Assembly: GCA_013141415.1 (NCBI GenBank)
Contig: JABFQY010000005.1
Coordinates: 62,001-126,000 of the forward strand
Direction: 5' to 3'
DNA: 64,000 nt
From: Kiritimatiellaceae bacterium
GTDB lineage: Bacteria; Verrucomicrobiota; Kiritimatiellia; Kiritimatiellales; Tichowtungiaceae
Shown: positions 20,324-47,768 of the stretch, piece by piece
Position numbering within the stretch: the first letter of the stretch is position 1
Layout: every line of letters starts with the position of its first letter
Notes under the pieces: model-generated
What the model was told of the DNA's origin: nothing
Databases searched by the model: none
What the model saw: only the letters and a program-made list of their open reading frames with translations
Translations under genes and position numbers: made by a program

Positions 20324-22107
20324 TGAATGTTTTGCTCCAGCACGGAAACGGCTGGCTTCGATTTGCGGAGCCGGTCGAAGTGCTGACGGCGCGCACATCG
20401 GATGAAGTTTATGAATGTCTGAAGAAAATCGAAACCAGCGGACTGTGGGCCGCTGGCTTTGTTTCCTACGAAGCCTCCGTCACGTTTGATGATGCGCTGA
20501 AAACTCATGTGCAGGGCGGGCTGCCGCTTTTGCAGTTCGGGCTGTTTAAAAATGTGGAGCAGACATCCCTGTCTGCTCAAATGCACAGGCAAGGATGCCT
20601 GCGCCACTATCAGCTTGGTGAGTGGAAGCCATCGGTGTCGCGGGGCGAATACGGCGAGGCGATCACGAAGATCAAAGAGCACATCGCGGCAGGCGATACC
20701 TATCAGGTCAATTATACCTTCCGGCTGAACGCGGAATTTTCCGGTTCGCCGTTCGACTTTTTCTGTGATCTGGCCGCCGCCCAGCAGGGCCGCTACGCTG
20801 CATTCATTGAAACGGATGAGTTTGCGATTTGTTCGGCGTCGCCGGAACTTTTCTTCGAACTCAACGACGGCGTGATTACTTCCCGGCCGATGAAGGGAAC
20901 TAAGTCCCGTGCGCTGACGGCGGTAGCCGACCGCGCCGCCGCCGAAGCGTTGAAGAATTCGGCGAAGGACTGCGCGGAAAACATCATGATCGTCGATATG
21001 ATCCGTAACGATATCGGCCGCATCGCCGAGGCCGGTTCGGTCGAAACGGTTAGCCGGTTCGATGTAGAAAAATATCCAACCGTCTGGCAGTTGACTTCCA
21101 CCGTACGGGGTCAGGCCTTGACTTTTGCTAAACAGCAAAAGTCAAGGCCTGACCCCCTCCCGGTATTTAGGGCGCTGTTTCCTTGTGCGTCCATCACCGG
21201 TGCGCCGAAGGCGAAGACGATGGAGATTATCCGGAGTTTGGAAAAGTCGCCGCGCGGTGTTTATACCGGTGCAATCGGGTTTATCGCGCCGGACGGCGCG
21301 GCACAGTTCAGCGTAGCAATCCGTACAGCCGTAGTGGATCGGATTAATGGATCGGTGGAGTATGGGATTGGTGGAGGAATTGTGTGGGATTCCAATCCGG
21401 AAGATGAATATCGCGAGGCGTTGTCCAAGGCGGCGATCTTGACGAAGAAGATGCCAGAGTTCCAGCTTCTGGAAACAATGCGTTGGGAAAATGGAGAAAT
21501 CTTTTTGCTGGAGCGGCATTTAAAGCGGCTGGCGGAGTCGGCTGAGTATTTTGATTTTGAATGTGATCTGGCAAATATCCGTAGCGCATTGAATGAATGC
21601 TGTAGGCCCGGTGACCCCACCGGGCGGACGCCGTGTGAGGGCACACGGCCTACAAAGATTCGCCTGTTATTAAACCAGAGCGGTGCATTTGAAGTTCAGA
21701 CCTCTGAAATACAACGCGGTGAGGGCACCGCGTCTACGTTGGCGATCGCGAAAGAGCCGGTCGATTCCGGCGATGTGTTTCTTTATCACAAGACGACGAA
21801 CCGCGCTGTTTACGAAAAAGCGAAGGCCGATTTCCCTGAGGCTAACGATGTTCTGCTGTTCAATGAGCGCGGCGAGGTGACGGAGAGTTGTATTGCCAAT
21901 GTGGTGATCGAGCTGGATGGACGCAAGGTGACTCCGCCGGTTTCCTGCGGATTATTGGCAGGGACGTTTCGCGATGACCTGCTCGAACGGGGTGAAATCT
22001 GCGAGCAGGTTATAACATTGGATGATCTCAAGCGTGCAGATGCAATCTGCCTGATAAATTCTGTTCGCAAATGGCGGAAGGTTTCTGTTAACTGGGCGGC
22101 CTTATGA
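20323..22107 (+). CDS. pabBC: Aminodeoxychorismate synthase component I / aminodeoxychorismate lyase fusion
   Basis: Makes 4-aminobenzoate for folate. The PabB half (about 1-385) has SRPMKGTKSR, IVDMIRNDIGRIA, LFPCASITGAPKAKTMEII and GIGGGIVWDSNPEDE. The PabC half (about 390-594) is a fold-type IV PLP enzyme with the lysine in FLYHKTTNR and ERGEVTESCIANVV. Four palindromic segments lie inside the frame at about residues 77-95, 262-278, 427-444 and 464-470, all without stops. The gene sits between purL (TAATG overlap) and purQ (4-bp overlap), tying folate to purine synthesis. The amidotransferase PabA is not in the window. Confidence 0.92.
   Translation: MNVLLQHGNGWLRFAEPVEVLTARTSDEVYECLKKIETSGLWAAGFVSYEASVTFDDALKTHVQGGLPLLQFGLFKNVEQTSLSAQMHRQGCLRHYQLGEWKPSVSRGEYGEAITKIKEHIAAGDTYQVNYTFRLNAEFSGSPFDFFCDLAAAQQGRYAAFIETDEFAICSASPELFFELNDGVITSRPMKGTKSRALTAVADRAAAEALKNSAKDCAENIMIVDMIRNDIGRIAEAGSVETVSRFDVEKYPTVWQLTSTVRGQALTFAKQQKSRPDPLPVFRALFPCASITGAPKAKTMEIIRSLEKSPRGVYTGAIGFIAPDGAAQFSVAIRTAVVDRINGSVEYGIGGGIVWDSNPEDEYREALSKAAILTKKMPEFQLLETMRWENGEIFLLERHLKRLAESAEYFDFECDLANIRSALNECCRPGDPTGRTPCEGTRPTKIRLLLNQSGAFEVQTSEIQRGEGTASTLAIAKEPVDSGDVFLYHKTTNRAVYEKAKADFPEANDVLLFNERGEVTESCIANVVIELDGRKVTPPVSCGLLAGTFRDDLLERGEICEQVITLDDLKRADAICLINSVRKWRKVSVNWAAL
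20553..20608. repeat. In-frame inverted repeat in pabBC (GCAGGCATCC type)
   Basis: GGAGCAGACATCCCTGTCTG then CAGGCAAGGATGCCTGCGCC form an imperfect long palindrome; each half is itself a small hairpin. It is translated as NVEQTSLSAQMHRQGCLRHY in the PabB N-terminal domain. Related in plan to the GTAGGACAGGCTTCC elements at 22898 and 28091. Confidence 0.75.
21107..21156. repeat. In-frame perfect 23-bp inverted repeat in pabBC
   Basis: Left arm 21107-21129 (GGGGTCAGGCCTTGACTTTT plus GCT), loop AAAC, right arm 21134-21156, all 23 bp matching. It is translated as GQALTFAKQQKSRPDPL between the conserved TVRG and LFPCASITGAPK motifs, where family members usually have a shorter link. Confidence 0.85.
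21601..21654. repeat. In-frame compound inverted repeat in pabBC (TGTAGG...CCTACA)
   Basis: Outer arms TGTAGG and CCTACA enclose two hairpins, CCCGGTG-ACC-CCACCGGG and CCGTGTG-AGGG-CACACGG. It is translated as CCRPGDPTGRTPCEGTRPTK in the PabC half. The outer arms and CCGGTG core recur in the element before prmC (46688-46757). Confidence 0.8.
21714..21733. repeat. In-frame short hairpin in pabBC
   Basis: ACGCGGTG-AGGG-CACCGCGT, translated within IQRGEGTASTLAIAK. The GTGAGGGCAC centre matches the second hairpin of the 21601-21654 element, suggesting a shared origin. Confidence 0.6.
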
Positions 22108-24705: not shown

Positions 24706-24771
24706 GTAGACGCGACGCCCTCGTCGCGTTGTCTGTTGAGGGGGGGGACGCGACGAGGGCGTCGCGTCTAC
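24706..24771. repeat. VDATPS-type palindromic element, intergenic copy
   Basis: Arms of 24 bp, GTAGACGCGACGCCCTCGTC plus GCGT at 24706-24729 and the exact reverse complement at 24748-24771, around an 18-nt G-rich loop. This is the only copy in the window outside a gene; five others are inside prmC and the AddB-like gene. Confidence 0.9.
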
Positions 24772-27616: not shown

Positions 27617-30600
27617 ACCCTCTTTCAGAAGTTCCTTCGGGTCGATGGCTTCGGTTCGGCAGATGTGGGAATAGTCGTCGTAACCATCGATGAGCGGTTC
27701 GGTGGCGAGGTCGCCGGCGCGCAGTTTCCGGATATTGGAAAAGAGCGTTTCGAGGAACGCTTCCGTCAGTTCCGGATTCATTGAAAGCCGCTTGCCGGTG
27801 AAATGTTTCTGCATCTTTTCGAGGTTGCGTTCCTGCAGGTGATAGACCGCCAGTGTCTTTTCATTCAGTTCCGGCGTGTTGTGCGCGCCGAAAAACTTTT
27901 CCTGAGCTGCGAAAGTATAGAGCGGGATCTGGCAGTCGAGATTCAGTCCAATCTCTTTTTCGAGTTGCGATACCGGAACGCCGCGCGACTTGCTCTTGTA
28001 GTCCACCACCAGCAGCCGGTCGAGTTCACCGTCTTTGTTGAAGATGAGGTCGATGCGGTCGATTTTGCCTTTCAGTCGAATGGAATTAACGTAGGACAGG
28101 CTTCCAGCCTGTTCCCCGTCGCTTGGCCATTCAGGTGTGGACAGGCTGGAAGCCTGTCCTACATTGTAGAGGGTTAGCGGCAGATCGTGTTTGGTATCGA
28201 ACTTCATTTCGAACAGCGCCGGATAACGGTTTTCAGCCTGAGCGGTTTCAATATCCATGCAGACAAAGTTTTCGATCATCTGCAGCAGCTTGCGCTTTTC
28301 GGCTTCCCAGATGGATGGATGGCCGAGGTGGCGGCTAGGTCGCCGCTCCGCTTTTTTGAATTCTTCTTCCGCAATGCTGCGCGCCAGCATCAGCAACTCA
28401 TCAGCTTTGTTCGGATCAAACACCGCCAACGGAATTTCACCGCTCTGCGCAATTTTCCAACGTAGATGCGACGCCCTCGTCGCGTTTTCCTCCTGTTGCG
28501 AACGCGACGAGGGCGTCGCGTCTACGTTAAATCTCTCTGCATACCAGCCGCTCTGTTTGGCGATTGCGGTGTAAATCTGTTCGAGGATGTCGTGGATGAC
28601 TACGCCGCGATCCATCGGCGCGATGTCGTCTTCGTGCGTGAGATCGGGCCGGATGCTCAGCACCTTTTCGAGGAAGAAAACAAACCGGTTGCGGGCCAGC
28701 GATTCCAACGCCGTCGCGCTGAACTCCGGATTCTTCGCAATCCATTTATTGATCGTAGACGCGACGCCCTCGTCGCTCTCTTTTCCTTTGGAGGGTTCCG
28801 CTCCGTCGGAACCGGTCGCGACGGAGCGCGACCCTCCAGACCGCGCCGAGGGCGTCGCGTCTACGTTAAAAGCCAGCTTCGCTCTTGTTTGACGGACTTC
28901 ATCTTCGGCGCGGCAGAGTTCCGGCGGCAGGATGGTATGAAATGATTCGCCCAGCGCCGGTTTTTCAATGCCGGTCAGTCCGCGCATCCGTTCGAAAAAC
29001 TCGCCCGGCGCGCGCTCCTTGCCGTCGGCTCCGGTGCGGGTGTAAGAAAGCGTCAGCCGTTCCCGAGCCGCGCTCATTGCGGTGAGGAAAAGAATCTCTT
29101 CCTGAATCAGCGCCGCGCCGGTTTCGGAAAGCGCGAGCCGCGGACAGGGAATCTTCCGTTCGTCCAGAAAGGCCCGCAGCGCTTTGCGCTCGGCGTCGTT
29201 CAGCAGAGAATCGGTCTTCGGAATCTGCGGGAAGGTGCGGTCGTCCATGCCGGCGATATAAACTGATTCGAAGCGCAGGCCCGCCGCGTCCATCGGATTG
29301 ACAATCCAGACGCCGCTTTCGGTTCCGGCTTCGTCTTTGAGCGTGACGTTATCCAGCAGTTCCTCAAACAGCGCGGTCAACCGTTCCGGCGCAACCGGCC
29401 GACTGGTGACCTCGGCAATTTCTTCAATCAGCGTCAGTACTTCATCGGGCAGGGCGAGTTCGTGCTGTTCGATGATTACTCCGATGTGTTTAGAGAACTC
29501 CAGATGCGTAAAACGTAGACGCGACGCCCTCGTCGCGTTTTCCTGTGTGAGGGACGCGACGAGGGCGTCGCGTCTACGTTCTTCCAAGAATTGGAACCCT
29601 TGGAGTTCTTTCGGCAGGCGGCGCAGGCGCGGCGGTTCTTTCAGGCGGATTTCCTGTACGAGCGTTTGCCGCGCTTCGGCGTCGAGGCCGGGCCACTGAA
29701 TACCGGGCATTAACAGCAGGTCGCAGAGCCGGTCGCGCGAAAAGTTCTGCGGGAAGGCGAGCAGAGCGAGCAGTGCTTTAACCGGCGGATGAGCGGCGGC
29801 GGGTGTGCCGCGCCGGAAGTGGTACGGAATGCCGAAGCGCTGGAAGACGTCCGGGATGATGTCGGTGTACGGACTCAGATCGCGCAGGATCAGCGCGATG
29901 TCATCCGGCGCGGTACCTTTCTCTATTTCGCCGACGATGCGCCGTGCGGCATCTTCGATTTCACCGTACGGATGAGCCGAAACAAAAACCGAAACCCGCT
30001 CACGCGATTCCGACTCGAGAATATTGCTGTCGTCGGCTTCGAAGGCATCGGCGAAATCTTCCAGCCACGGTTTCCACTCTTCTTCGGATCCGCGCATCAG
30101 TTCGCTACGCACGACGGCGCAGAGCCGGTCTTCGGCGGCTTCGGCGTGCGCGCCCGGCAGGACGGAATAGATTTGTACCCGATCCGGGCCGAGCCGTTTT
30201 TTGAGCGCAACGGCGAAGCGTTCCTCGAACGGATTAAACCAGCGGACGGCGCGGAAATGAATTTCTCCGTCCAGCTCACGCGGCAACTCGCCGGATTCAA
30301 TCAGCCGGAGCAGGGATGTATTGACGATAAAGCGGTCGGCGATGTCCATTTTTGTACACAGCGCCCGCCATGCAATCAGAAGTTGACCGATGCCGTGCAG
30401 TTTATGATCCGGCGCGTGAGCCAGCAGCCATTCGGTAATGGCCGGTTCGTTTTCGGCGAAAACGGAAAACGCTTCAATTATCTGCCGGAGCAGTCCGGCC
30501 AGCGCGGCGGGCGAGAGGTTCGCGAGCGGCTGGCCGGTCGCGAACGCGACATTCCCGGCGGCTTCTTCGAGGAGCAGCCGGGTTTCGGGTTGACCGGGTA

Positions 30601-30778
30601 ATCGGCCCTTCAGCAGTCCGGCGCGGCGGGCAGACCGTTCGCACAGGGCGAGGAGTTTTTTCTGGGTGAAAAGCCGGGATGTGTCGAGGACTCCGGCATC
30701 CAGAACGCGGCGGCGCTCGGTCCGGCGTTTCGCCAGTTCGGTCGGAAAAATCATCAACGCCTCGCCGCTTATCTTCAT
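27614..30778 (-). CDS. AddB-like PD-(D/E)XK nuclease / inactivated helicase
   Basis: A 1054-aa protein with the layout of AddB/RexB or RecC-like recombination nucleases. The helicase-like part shows VSVFVSAHPYGEIEDAARRI, VYIAGMDDRTFP and AARERLTLSYTRT. The C-terminal nuclease has GVVIHDILEQIY and LLVVDYKSKSRGVP (D...DYK motif), then a late Cys in HICRTEA. I see no Walker A motif, so the helicase part is probably not an active motor, as in AddB relatives that retain only scaffolding. No AddA-like partner is adjacent. Four palindromic elements lie in frame at about residues 399-423, 637-675, 750-773 and 872-896. The start at 30778 is uncertain; MIFPTELAK at 30754 has a better ribosome-binding site. 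Confidence 0.8.
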   Translation of the reverse strand: MKISGEALMIFPTELAKRRTERRRVLDAGVLDTSRLFTQKKLLALCERSARRAGLLKGRLPGQPETRLLLEEAAGNVAFATGQPLANLSPAALAGLLRQIIEAFSVFAENEPAITEWLLAHAPDHKLHGIGQLLIAWRALCTKMDIADRFIVNTSLLRLIESGELPRELDGEIHFRAVRWFNPFEERFAVALKKRLGPDRVQIYSVLPGAHAEAAEDRLCAVVRSELMRGSEEEWKPWLEDFADAFEADDSNILESESRERVSVFVSAHPYGEIEDAARRIVGEIEKGTAPDDIALILRDLSPYTDIIPDVFQRFGIPYHFRRGTPAAAHPPVKALLALLAFPQNFSRDRLCDLLLMPGIQWPGLDAEARQTLVQEIRLKEPPRLRRLPKELQGFQFLEERRRDALVASLTQENATRASRLRFTHLEFSKHIGVIIEQHELALPDEVLTLIEEIAEVTSRPVAPERLTALFEELLDNVTLKDEAGTESGVWIVNPMDAAGLRFESVYIAGMDDRTFPQIPKTDSLLNDAERKALRAFLDERKIPCPRLALSETGAALIQEEILFLTAMSAARERLTLSYTRTGADGKERAPGEFFERMRGLTGIEKPALGESFHTILPPELCRAEDEVRQTRAKLAFNVDATPSARSGGSRSVATGSDGAEPSKGKESDEGVASTINKWIAKNPEFSATALESLARNRFVFFLEKVLSIRPDLTHEDDIAPMDRGVVIHDILEQIYTAIAKQSGWYAERFNVDATPSSRSQQEENATRASHLRWKIAQSGEIPLAVFDPNKADELLMLARSIAEEEFKKAERRPSRHLGHPSIWEAEKRKLLQMIENFVCMDIETAQAENRYPALFEMKFDTKHDLPLTLYNVGQASSLSTPEWPSDGEQAGSLSYVNSIRLKGKIDRIDLIFNKDGELDRLLVVDYKSKSRGVPVSQLEKEIGLNLDCQIPLYTFAAQEKFFGAHNTPELNEKTLAVYHLQERNLEKMQKHFTGKRLSMNPELTEAFLETLFSNIRKLRAGDLATEPLIDGYDDYSHICRTEAIDPKELLKEG
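28091..28162. repeat. In-frame GTAGGACAGGCTTCC element in the AddB-like gene
   Basis: Perfect 22-bp arms at 28091-28112 (GTAGGACAGGCTTCCAGCCT plus GT) and 28141-28162. Translated as NVGQASSLSTPEWPSDGEQA and GSLSYVN. Same family as 22898-22945. Confidence 0.88.
28459..28528. repeat. In-frame VDATPS-type element in the AddB-like gene
   Basis: Arms of 28 bp with one mismatch (AACGTAGATGCGACGCCCTC... at 28459-28486 and its complement at 28501-28528). On the coding strand they read NVDATPSSR and NATRASHLR. Confidence 0.9.
28754..28866. repeat. In-frame VDATPS-type element with nested palindrome
   Basis: Outer arms of 23 bp with one mismatch (CGTAGACGCGACGCCCTCGT... and GCGCCGAGGGCGTCGCGTCT...). 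The loop is itself a palindrome, GGAGGGTTCCGCTCCGTCGG paired with a GACGGAGCGCGACCCTCC arm. Translated as NVDATPSARSGGS...SDEGVAST in the AddB-like protein. Confidence 0.88.
29512..29580. repeat. In-frame VDATPS-type element in the AddB-like gene
   Basis: Perfect 27-bp arms at 29512-29538 and 29554-29580 with a 15-nt loop. Here the coding strand uses a different frame, RRRDALVASLTQENATRASR, still without a stop. A TTCCAAGAATTGGAA palindrome follows immediately at 29582. Confidence 0.9.
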
Positions 30779-46687: not shown

Positions 46688-46757
46688 TCGCCCGGTGAGG
46701 CCGCCGAGCCTACAGTTCTCCGGCTGAATTTGTAGGCTCGGTGGCCTCACCGGGCGA
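46688..46757. repeat. TCGCCCGGTGAGGCC inverted repeat directly before prmC
   Basis: Arms of 27 bp with one mismatch (46688-46714 and 46731-46757; left starts TCGCCCGGTGAGGCCGCCGA), loop of 16 nt. The right arm ends 6 bp before the prmC ATG, taking the place where a Shine-Dalgarno site would be. TGTAGGC and CCGGTG words are shared with 21601-21654. Confidence 0.85.
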
Positions 46758-46763
46758 AGTTAT

Positions 46764-47768
46764 ATGAATGATTTAATCAAACAACTTGAAGCGCGGCTGG
46801 CGGCGGCGGGTAGCGGGAACGCGAAGCGCGCCGCCGAGGAGCTTGCCGCGCATGTGATGGGTTGCAGGCCGCTCGAAATTTATTTCAAAACCATCACGCC
46901 GGAGCAGCAGGCGGAGCTCGAAAAACTGATTGTCCGCGCAGAGCAGGGCGAGCCGATCCAATACATTATCGGTCACGTCGATTTCCGAGGTTTGGAAATC
47001 CGCTGCGACCGCCGCGCGCTGATTCCCAGGCCCGAAACTGAACTTCTCGTTCAGGCTGTTTTGGATAACGTAGACGCGACGCCCTCGTCGCGTACAAAAC
47101 AGACGAAACGCGATCCGCCTTCGCCTAAGGCTACGGCGCGACGCGACGAGGGCGTCGCGTCTACGTTAAAGATCGTGGACGTTGGCTCTGGTACTGGTTG
47201 CATTGCGTTGGCGTTGCTTTCGGAACTGCCGAACGCTGAAGTTGTCGCGGTCGATGTTTCGTCGGATGCGCTGGCGCTGGCAAAAGAGAATGCCGAGCGG
47301 CTGGGATTCGGCGGCCGGTTTACTGCTGTGCAGGGAAATCTTCTCAATGTAGACGCGACGACCCCGTCGCGTTGTAAACAGGAGAAACGCGATCCGCCTT
47401 CGCCTGAGGCTACGGCGCGACGCGACGAGGGCGTCGCGTTTACATTTTTTGCGGAGGCTTCGCTCGACATCGTGGTTTCGAATCCGCCGTACATTCTTTC
47501 CGGTGTCTGCAAAACGTTGGATCCGTCTGTGCGCGACTTTGAGCCGAAGCTGGCGCTCGACGGCGGCGCGGACGGCCTCGATCTGGTTCGTCCGCTGGTT
47601 GAACAGGCGGCTTGGGTTCTGAAACCCGGCGGCGGCATCTTTCTTGAAATCGGTTACGACCAAGGTCTTGCCGTTGCCCTGATATTGAAAGATGCTGGTT
47701 TCCAACGGGTTGAGATCAAAAAAGACTACGCCGGACTCGATCGTATCGTCATCGGTTTCCGGCGCTAA
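46764..47768 (+). CDS. prmC: Peptide chain release factor N5-glutamine methyltransferase with two inserted palindromes
   Basis: Methylates the GGQ glutamine of release factors with SAM. The N-terminal helical domain (about 1-95, ending FRGLEIRCDRRALIPRPETE), motif I DVGSGTGCIALALL and the substrate-binding NPPY (IVVSNPPYIL) are intact, as is KPGGGIFLEIGYDQG. The protein has 334 aa where about 270-280 is usual. The excess is two inserts of about 34 residues, NVDATPSSRT...DEGVAST (101-135) and NVDATTPSRC...DEGVAFT (194-228), each encoded by a palindromic element. There is no clear ribosome-binding site because a hairpin element sits there. Confidence 0.92.
   Translation: MNDLIKQLEARLAAAGSGNAKRAAEELAAHVMGCRPLEIYFKTITPEQQAELEKLIVRAEQGEPIQYIIGHVDFRGLEIRCDRRALIPRPETELLVQAVLDNVDATPSSRTKQTKRDPPSPKATARRDEGVASTLKIVDVGSGTGCIALALLSELPNAEVVAVDVSSDALALAKENAERLGFGGRFTAVQGNLLNVDATTPSRCKQEKRDPPSPEATARRDEGVAFTFFAEASLDIVVSNPPYILSGVCKTLDPSVRDFEPKLALDGGADGLDLVRPLVEQAAWVLKPGGGIFLEIGYDQGLAVALILKDAGFQRVEIKKDYAGLDRIVIGFRR
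47067..47167. repeat. In-frame VDATPS-type element in prmC, copy 1
   Basis: Perfect 27-bp arms (47067-47093, start AACGTAGACGCGACGCCCTC; 47141-47167). The 47-nt loop has GCGATCCGCCTTCGCC and CTACGGCGCG. Falls between the helical domain and motif I of the methyltransferase. Confidence 0.93.
47346..47446. repeat. In-frame VDATPS-type element in prmC, copy 2
   Basis: Arms of 27 bp with a few mismatches (47346-47372 and 47420-47446); loop nearly identical to copy 1 (CGCGATCCGCCTTCGCCTGA). Falls just before the NPPY catalytic motif of the methyltransferase. Confidence 0.92.

Follow-up and report, generated by a model that had tools for sequence, protein, structure and literature searches.

Two in-frame REPINs, probably translated and tolerated, in prmC of a Kiritimatiellaceae bacterium

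The prmC gene of a Kiritimatiellaceae bacterium (assembly GCA_013141415.1) carries two inserts that are very probably in-frame REPINs, translated with the protein and tolerated by it; the REP-associated tyrosine transposase (RAYT) that mobilised them is most likely one embedded in PriA. PrmC, the release factor glutamine methyltransferase, acts in the maturation of the proteins that end translation. The gene (46764-47768, plus strand, 334 aa, single copy) lies in a 64,000-nucleotide stretch of contig JABFQY010000005.1, the whole of which is called the window here. A preliminary description of this DNA had proposed two element-encoded inserts in prmC. Both are present, with boundaries that had to be moved from residues 101-135 and 194-228 to residues 103-134 and 196-227, that is, 32 residues each. 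Beyond that description, the elements prove to be doublets of a REP that occurs throughout the genome; in-frame insertion is common in this family, and a matching transposase lies in priA.

The prmC gene

Inserts notwithstanding, the prmC reading frame scores 241.7 bits against the profile TIGR03534 (RF_mod_PrmC), which has a curated cut-off of 199.1 bits. Family profile, NPPY motif, SAM motif and fold all place the product among the PrmC/HemK release-factor methyltransferases. The homologues used for alignment come from related MAGs, with records named Verrucomicrobia or Kiritimatiellae; the nearest (G008/L017) is 88% identical over residues 1-104. The PrmC core aligns well to these homologues with all motifs kept, and the SAM-binding and NPPY motifs, which had been called intact, indeed line up with those of insert-free sequences.

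Two insertions in one gene might indicate that prmC is dying, its function being supplied elsewhere or dispensable. The preservation of the core and motifs, the score above the curated cut-off and the keeping of the frame at both insertions all argue against decay, and make it very improbable. The preliminary description had left three ways out, namely that the inserts are tolerated, that they are excised or that the gene is backed up. The search for a backup found no second prmC in the genome, which is 95.5% complete and so leaves a little room for a hidden copy. Upstream of the gene, window positions 46690-46755 hold a REPIN that belongs to another GTAG family (GTAGGCTCGGTGGCCTCACCGGGC); 8 nt separate its end from the start codon of prmC.

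Anatomy of the two elements

Each element consists of two inverted 24-nt units (GTAGACGCGACGCCCTCGTCGCGT: GTAG, then a hairpin of 8 bp) that enclose a 47-nt middle, which contains a further GTAG and hairpin, and each encodes 32 extra residues. REPIN 1 (95 nt, 47070-47164) encodes residues 103-134 (VDATPSSRTKQTKRDPPSPKATARRDEGVAST) in the interdomain linker. Its left REP (47070-47093, plus strand) is formed by GTAG and the hairpin ACGCGACG-CCCT-CGTCGCGT, and its right REP (47141-47164) is inverted, on the minus strand. The second GTAG with its small hairpin (GTAGCCTTAGGCGAAGGCGGATC) is nested in the middle at 47112-47134, minus strand, and to our reading resembles a REP. REPIN 2 (95 nt, 47349-47443) encodes residues 196-227 (VDATTPSRCKQEKRDPPSPEATARRDEGVAFT) in the loop before NPPY; at this site, hand alignment to the G008 sequence gives a net gain of 32 codons. 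Its arms are more mutated than those of REPIN 1, with two mismatches to the consensus in the left REP (47349-47372, plus strand) and one in the right REP (47420-47443, minus strand). Its nested GTAG and hairpin (47391-47413, minus strand) differs from the REPIN 1 counterpart by one mismatch.

The two copies are 89% identical over 101 nt. Their 47-nt middle has no match elsewhere in the genome, and the 95-nt form is confined to prmC. Since the shared middle is unique to them, one copy probably derives from the other, as had been suggested. Chance cannot account for the elements, since the window contains 12 matches to the 24-mer at three or fewer mismatches and 100 shuffles contain none. As single-stranded DNA the two elements fold with z = -7.5 and -4.4. 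Eight codons differ between the copies and seven of the eight differences are nonsynonymous, so the insert sequence shows no sign of selection as protein.

Insertion sites and tolerance

The nearest PrmC, that of G008, is without either insert. Neither is present in the homologues of the genus, except that G013 and G011 have a different REPIN at site 2, a 50-nt palindrome of GTGG type (GTGGAC..CCAC). The three carriers do not group on the PrmC tree, where the genome described here (G000) pairs with G008 (support 100/99); this scatter requires at least two separate insertion events at site 2. In relatives (L017, L018, L019 and L038), site 1 has short tandem heptamers (AATCGGC, GTTCAGA, GTGGAAG) and no REPIN, which indicates that the PrmC linker is variable in other ways too.

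Both sites had been described as structurally tolerant, and structure prediction agrees with this. An AlphaFold model of PrmC with its inserts, built from a 15-sequence alignment, keeps the PrmC fold, and Foldseek places it closest to the PrmC/HemK structures of E. coli and T. maritima. The mean pLDDT is 87; the core exceeds 90, and the two inserts, one in the interdomain linker and one in the loop before the NPPY strand, are low-confidence regions (about 47-61) with almost no predicted structure. In terms of the model, the inserts are most simply tolerated loops.

The inserts could instead have been recruited for PrmC function or regulation, with hairpins that tune the mRNA level or loops that bind a partner. 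That site 2 was struck in separate lineages would fit such a role, as would the effect on mRNA that is attributed to REP hairpins (PMC3733652). Recruitment is nevertheless improbable in view of the mostly nonsynonymous codon differences between the copies, the insert-free nearest relative and the low confidence of the inserts in the model. Nothing indicates a PrmC function for them.

In-frame REPs across the genome

With up to three mismatches, the 24-mer REP has 68 copies in the 2.2-Mb genome, and its reversed-pattern control has none. The copies are short hairpins with a terminal GTAG, as is characteristic of the GTAG superfamily. They mostly form inverted pairs, usually of 52-66 nt (range 52-143 nt), and thus show the REPIN anatomy of two inverted, closely spaced and dispersed REPs.

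About 17 of the roughly 36 element loci are in frame within 12 genes supported by Pfam. The host products are PrmC (two copies), an AddB/RecB-like nuclease (three), TilS (two), MetRS, PriA, DNA photolyase, a class-III aminotransferase, a HAD hydrolase, a Mur ligase and CoaB/DFP, together with LigA and an ABC ATPase, in which the REP is at the C-terminus. The MetRS copy lies between the anticodon-binding and tRNA-binding domains, and the PriA copy between the 3'BD and helicase domains. Most of the remaining loci are between ORFs. Long ORFs over elements at L053, L061, L064, L065 (4135-4893), L067 and L072 were left out of the gene count because they have no Pfam match.

The AddB/RecB-like nuclease gene lies in the window (27617-30778, minus strand, 1053 aa). 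Its three in-frame doublets of the prmC type are a REPIN at 28462-28525 (residues VDATPSSR...ATRASHLR), a 110-nt doublet at 28755-28864 and a REPIN at 29515-29577, which uses the other open phase (RRRDALVA...). One more prmC-type REPIN of the window (24706-24771) is outside any Pfam-verified gene. The window also contains a pabB/pabC-like fusion gene (chorismate-binding and aminotransferase IV), in which REP-like units are in frame at 21602-21737, in the aminotransferase part (CRPGDPTGR ... QRGEGTAST). In L075 (2289-4184, minus strand), an ORF for a restriction-modification methylase/specificity protein has its stop codon supplied by a REP end (TAG).

Of the three phases in which the left REP can be read, one contains TAG, and no in-gene copy uses it. 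The two open phases are used unequally (VDATPSSR 12, RRDALVA 2), a bias with p = 0.013 on the assumption of independent loci, which does not hold for the paired prmC copies.

These regularities bear on two further explanations. The inserts could be an assembly artefact of the metagenome bin, given that repeats are hard to assemble; such an error would not be expected to keep the frame in about 12 genes, and other REP families behave alike in separately assembled relatives. We regard it as the least probable of the alternatives. The elements could also be removed before or during protein synthesis, by RNA excision, ribosome bypass or protein splicing, which would leave mature PrmC insert-free. 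Their strong hairpins could in principle promote bypass. Removal would, however, require neither an open frame nor avoidance of the stop phase, both of which hold for all elements in verified genes, and the sites are loops where tolerance suffices. Inteins and self-splicing introns were rejected, as Pfam scans of the host ORFs revealed no splicing domain and a group I or II intron would not fit into 95 nt. Nothing points to splicing of the prmC inserts, and removal is, like decay of the gene, very improbable. The excision left open by the preliminary description is unlikely, given that frame keeping and avoidance of the GTAG stop phase hold throughout about 12 genes.

Translation with tolerance fits the prmC inserts best, judging from the DNA and its reading frames; that REPs generally lie outside genes speaks against it. 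REPINs would be non-autonomous mobile elements, mobilised by a RAYT that cleaves single-stranded DNA at REP hairpins and joins the product to new sites. In prmC they would have landed in frame at two surface-loop positions, one probably copied from the other, and would be expressed as loops of 32 residues that are hydrophilic and probably disordered. In essential single-copy genes the survivors would be frame-keeping insertions in permissive linkers and loops, and selection would remove the others. Survival of only frame-keeping, loop-sited insertions would explain the pattern across about 12 genes.

Intragenic dimers of GTAG REPs are known, most numerously from Opitutus terrae (Di Nocera et al., 2013, PMC3733652). 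Like those in prmC, the dimers of that study are GTAG-tagged hairpins in ORFs, code for 20-30 residues and sometimes occur twice per gene. Their hosts include DNA ligase, photolyase, a tRNA synthetase and recB, and in recB two species of Xanthomonas have different REPs at nearly the same position (PMC3733652). The present case differs in lineage and REP sequence, in prmC as host, in the 95-nt form with its nested second hairpin, and in the location of the matching RAYT gene, which is likewise embedded in frame in a core gene. The palindromic elements of Rickettsia (RPE) are also in-frame palindromes of core genes that are translated (PMC10969869). They are about 150 bp long and have no RAYT association in the literature consulted, whereas the prmC elements have GTAG-REP anatomy and a matching RAYT; it is by this description that the two are set apart. 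To this known kind of in-frame GTAG REPs and RPEs, the prmC inserts add a new member. Such palindromes illustrate how essential proteins can gain length from selfish DNA and remain intact. With known insert boundaries, an insert-free relative and the possibility of complementation in E. coli, prmC offers a simple case for testing their cost.

A RAYT within priA

The priA gene (L065, 239-3271, minus strand) encodes 1010 aa in one open frame, in the order 3'BD, REP, RAYT, REP, helicase. The RAYT within it has HUH and Tyr motifs, and the REPs at its flanks are the same as in prmC. No other priA was found in this genome. Two further REPs (GRDEGVVSTEDNVDATPSSH) lie in frame inside this RAYT, at about L065 2504-2561. 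RAYTs are also in frame in xseA (L079:1218-3137, plus strand) and in a B12/radical-SAM gene (L076:3187-5337, minus strand) of this genome.

Known RAYTs recognise the GTAG tetranucleotide and hairpin and cut single-stranded DNA (PMC8266576). In three genomes, the REP type that flanks the PriA-embedded RAYT matches the type in prmC species by species: GTAGACGCGACG in G000, and the GAGGCTTCC/GCGGCAGGGATGCCGCTTCCAC type in G011 and G013. The match, limited to these three genomes, ties the prmC inserts to the PriA-embedded RAYT. At least eight other Y1-type transposases of the genome are above the Pfam cut-off, so the PriA-embedded RAYT is not the sole candidate. On the evidence of the shared REP type, it is the most likely one to have moved the prmC REPINs, and the PriA-RAYT fusion would be expressed as a protein. 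Other Y1 transposases occur within about 1 kb of REP copies in L051, L057 and L074, and two of those REPs are in other genes.

The REPIN/RAYT systems (REPtrons) of Pseudomonas, E. coli and Stenotrophomonas share GTAG with a hairpin, inverted pairs, and a HUH/Tyr transposase with its REPs at the flanks (PMC3116915, PMC8266576). For these systems the RAYT is regarded as a separate gene and the REPs as mainly extragenic, whereas here most RAYTs of the subfamily are in frame within host genes, as follows.

RAYTs in core genes across the order

A search of 43 genomes of the order with a RAYT domain gave 65 matches of about 100 residues or more. Open frames of at least 435 aa hold 51 of them; 12 are in frames shorter than 300 aa. 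The hosts were recognised by motif, with a Pfam check on representatives, and are PriA (16), the CCA-adding enzyme (10), XseA (9), the B12/radical-SAM protein (9) and HypF (2), with single or few cases in CmoB-like, diphosphomevalonate decarboxylase, Fic and TatD proteins. All 51 embedded RAYTs have HUH and 50 have the catalytic Tyr; together with flanking REPs, which were read in the DNA for the PriA copies, these features identify them as RAYTs (TnpA-REP).

Embedded RAYTs cluster by host gene. Host labels change seven times on the RAYT tree (minimum five), as against 30 times after shuffling, and none of 200 shuffles was as low. Between species, the RAYT segments in PriA have pN/pS of 0.17-0.38, similar to or somewhat above the 0.10-0.24 of the host domains, which indicates that they evolve as protein. 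Their synonymous divergence is well above that of the host gene (G010-G003: pS 0.72 vs. 0.19-0.35). This suggests that the RAYT in PriA was replaced at the same site or evolves on a faster clock, as opposed to having descended simply by vertical inheritance; since synonymous sites are near saturation, we put little weight on the difference.

It is conceivable, though we hold this only tentatively, that across the order a RAYT lineage persists as passenger domains placed in frame in linkers of core genes, with mostly a single lineage for each host gene, and is translated within the host protein (priA, xseA, cca, hypF, B12/radical-SAM, cmoB-like and others). The need for the host would then keep the frame and shelter a transposase that spreads REPINs able to survive in frame, such as those in prmC. 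Joining to PriA and exonuclease VII might bring the RAYT to single-stranded DNA. The RAYT appears to share the hiding place of its REPINs, since most subfamily members in this order have open frames continuous with those of core genes. Should the fusions be produced and be active, they would represent a route of transposase persistence that is unreported as far as we found, and possibly an explanation for the long upkeep of REPIN populations.

Inteins provide an analogy only: they too are open frames that interrupt conserved genes of replication and tRNA function without breaking the frame, with lineages clustered by host. They differ in having a splicing domain, whereas here Pfam detects only Y1_Tnp in the insert and the sites are linkers. 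In open-access literature we did not find a RAYT or other transposase described in frame inside priA, xseA or cca, nor any account of RAYT genes that share the frame of core genes and cluster by host. One survey discarded "unexpectedly long" RAYT proteins as fusions or errors (PMC6006769), and annotators may wish to be cautious before doing so.

Two individual copies deserve mention. The RAYT in the priA of G003 (L084) is the sole embedded one with His at the position of the catalytic Tyr (HIEDNP) and is possibly a dead copy. In L130 (932-2677, minus strand), a Fic-domain protein has a RAYT in frame at its C-terminal end.
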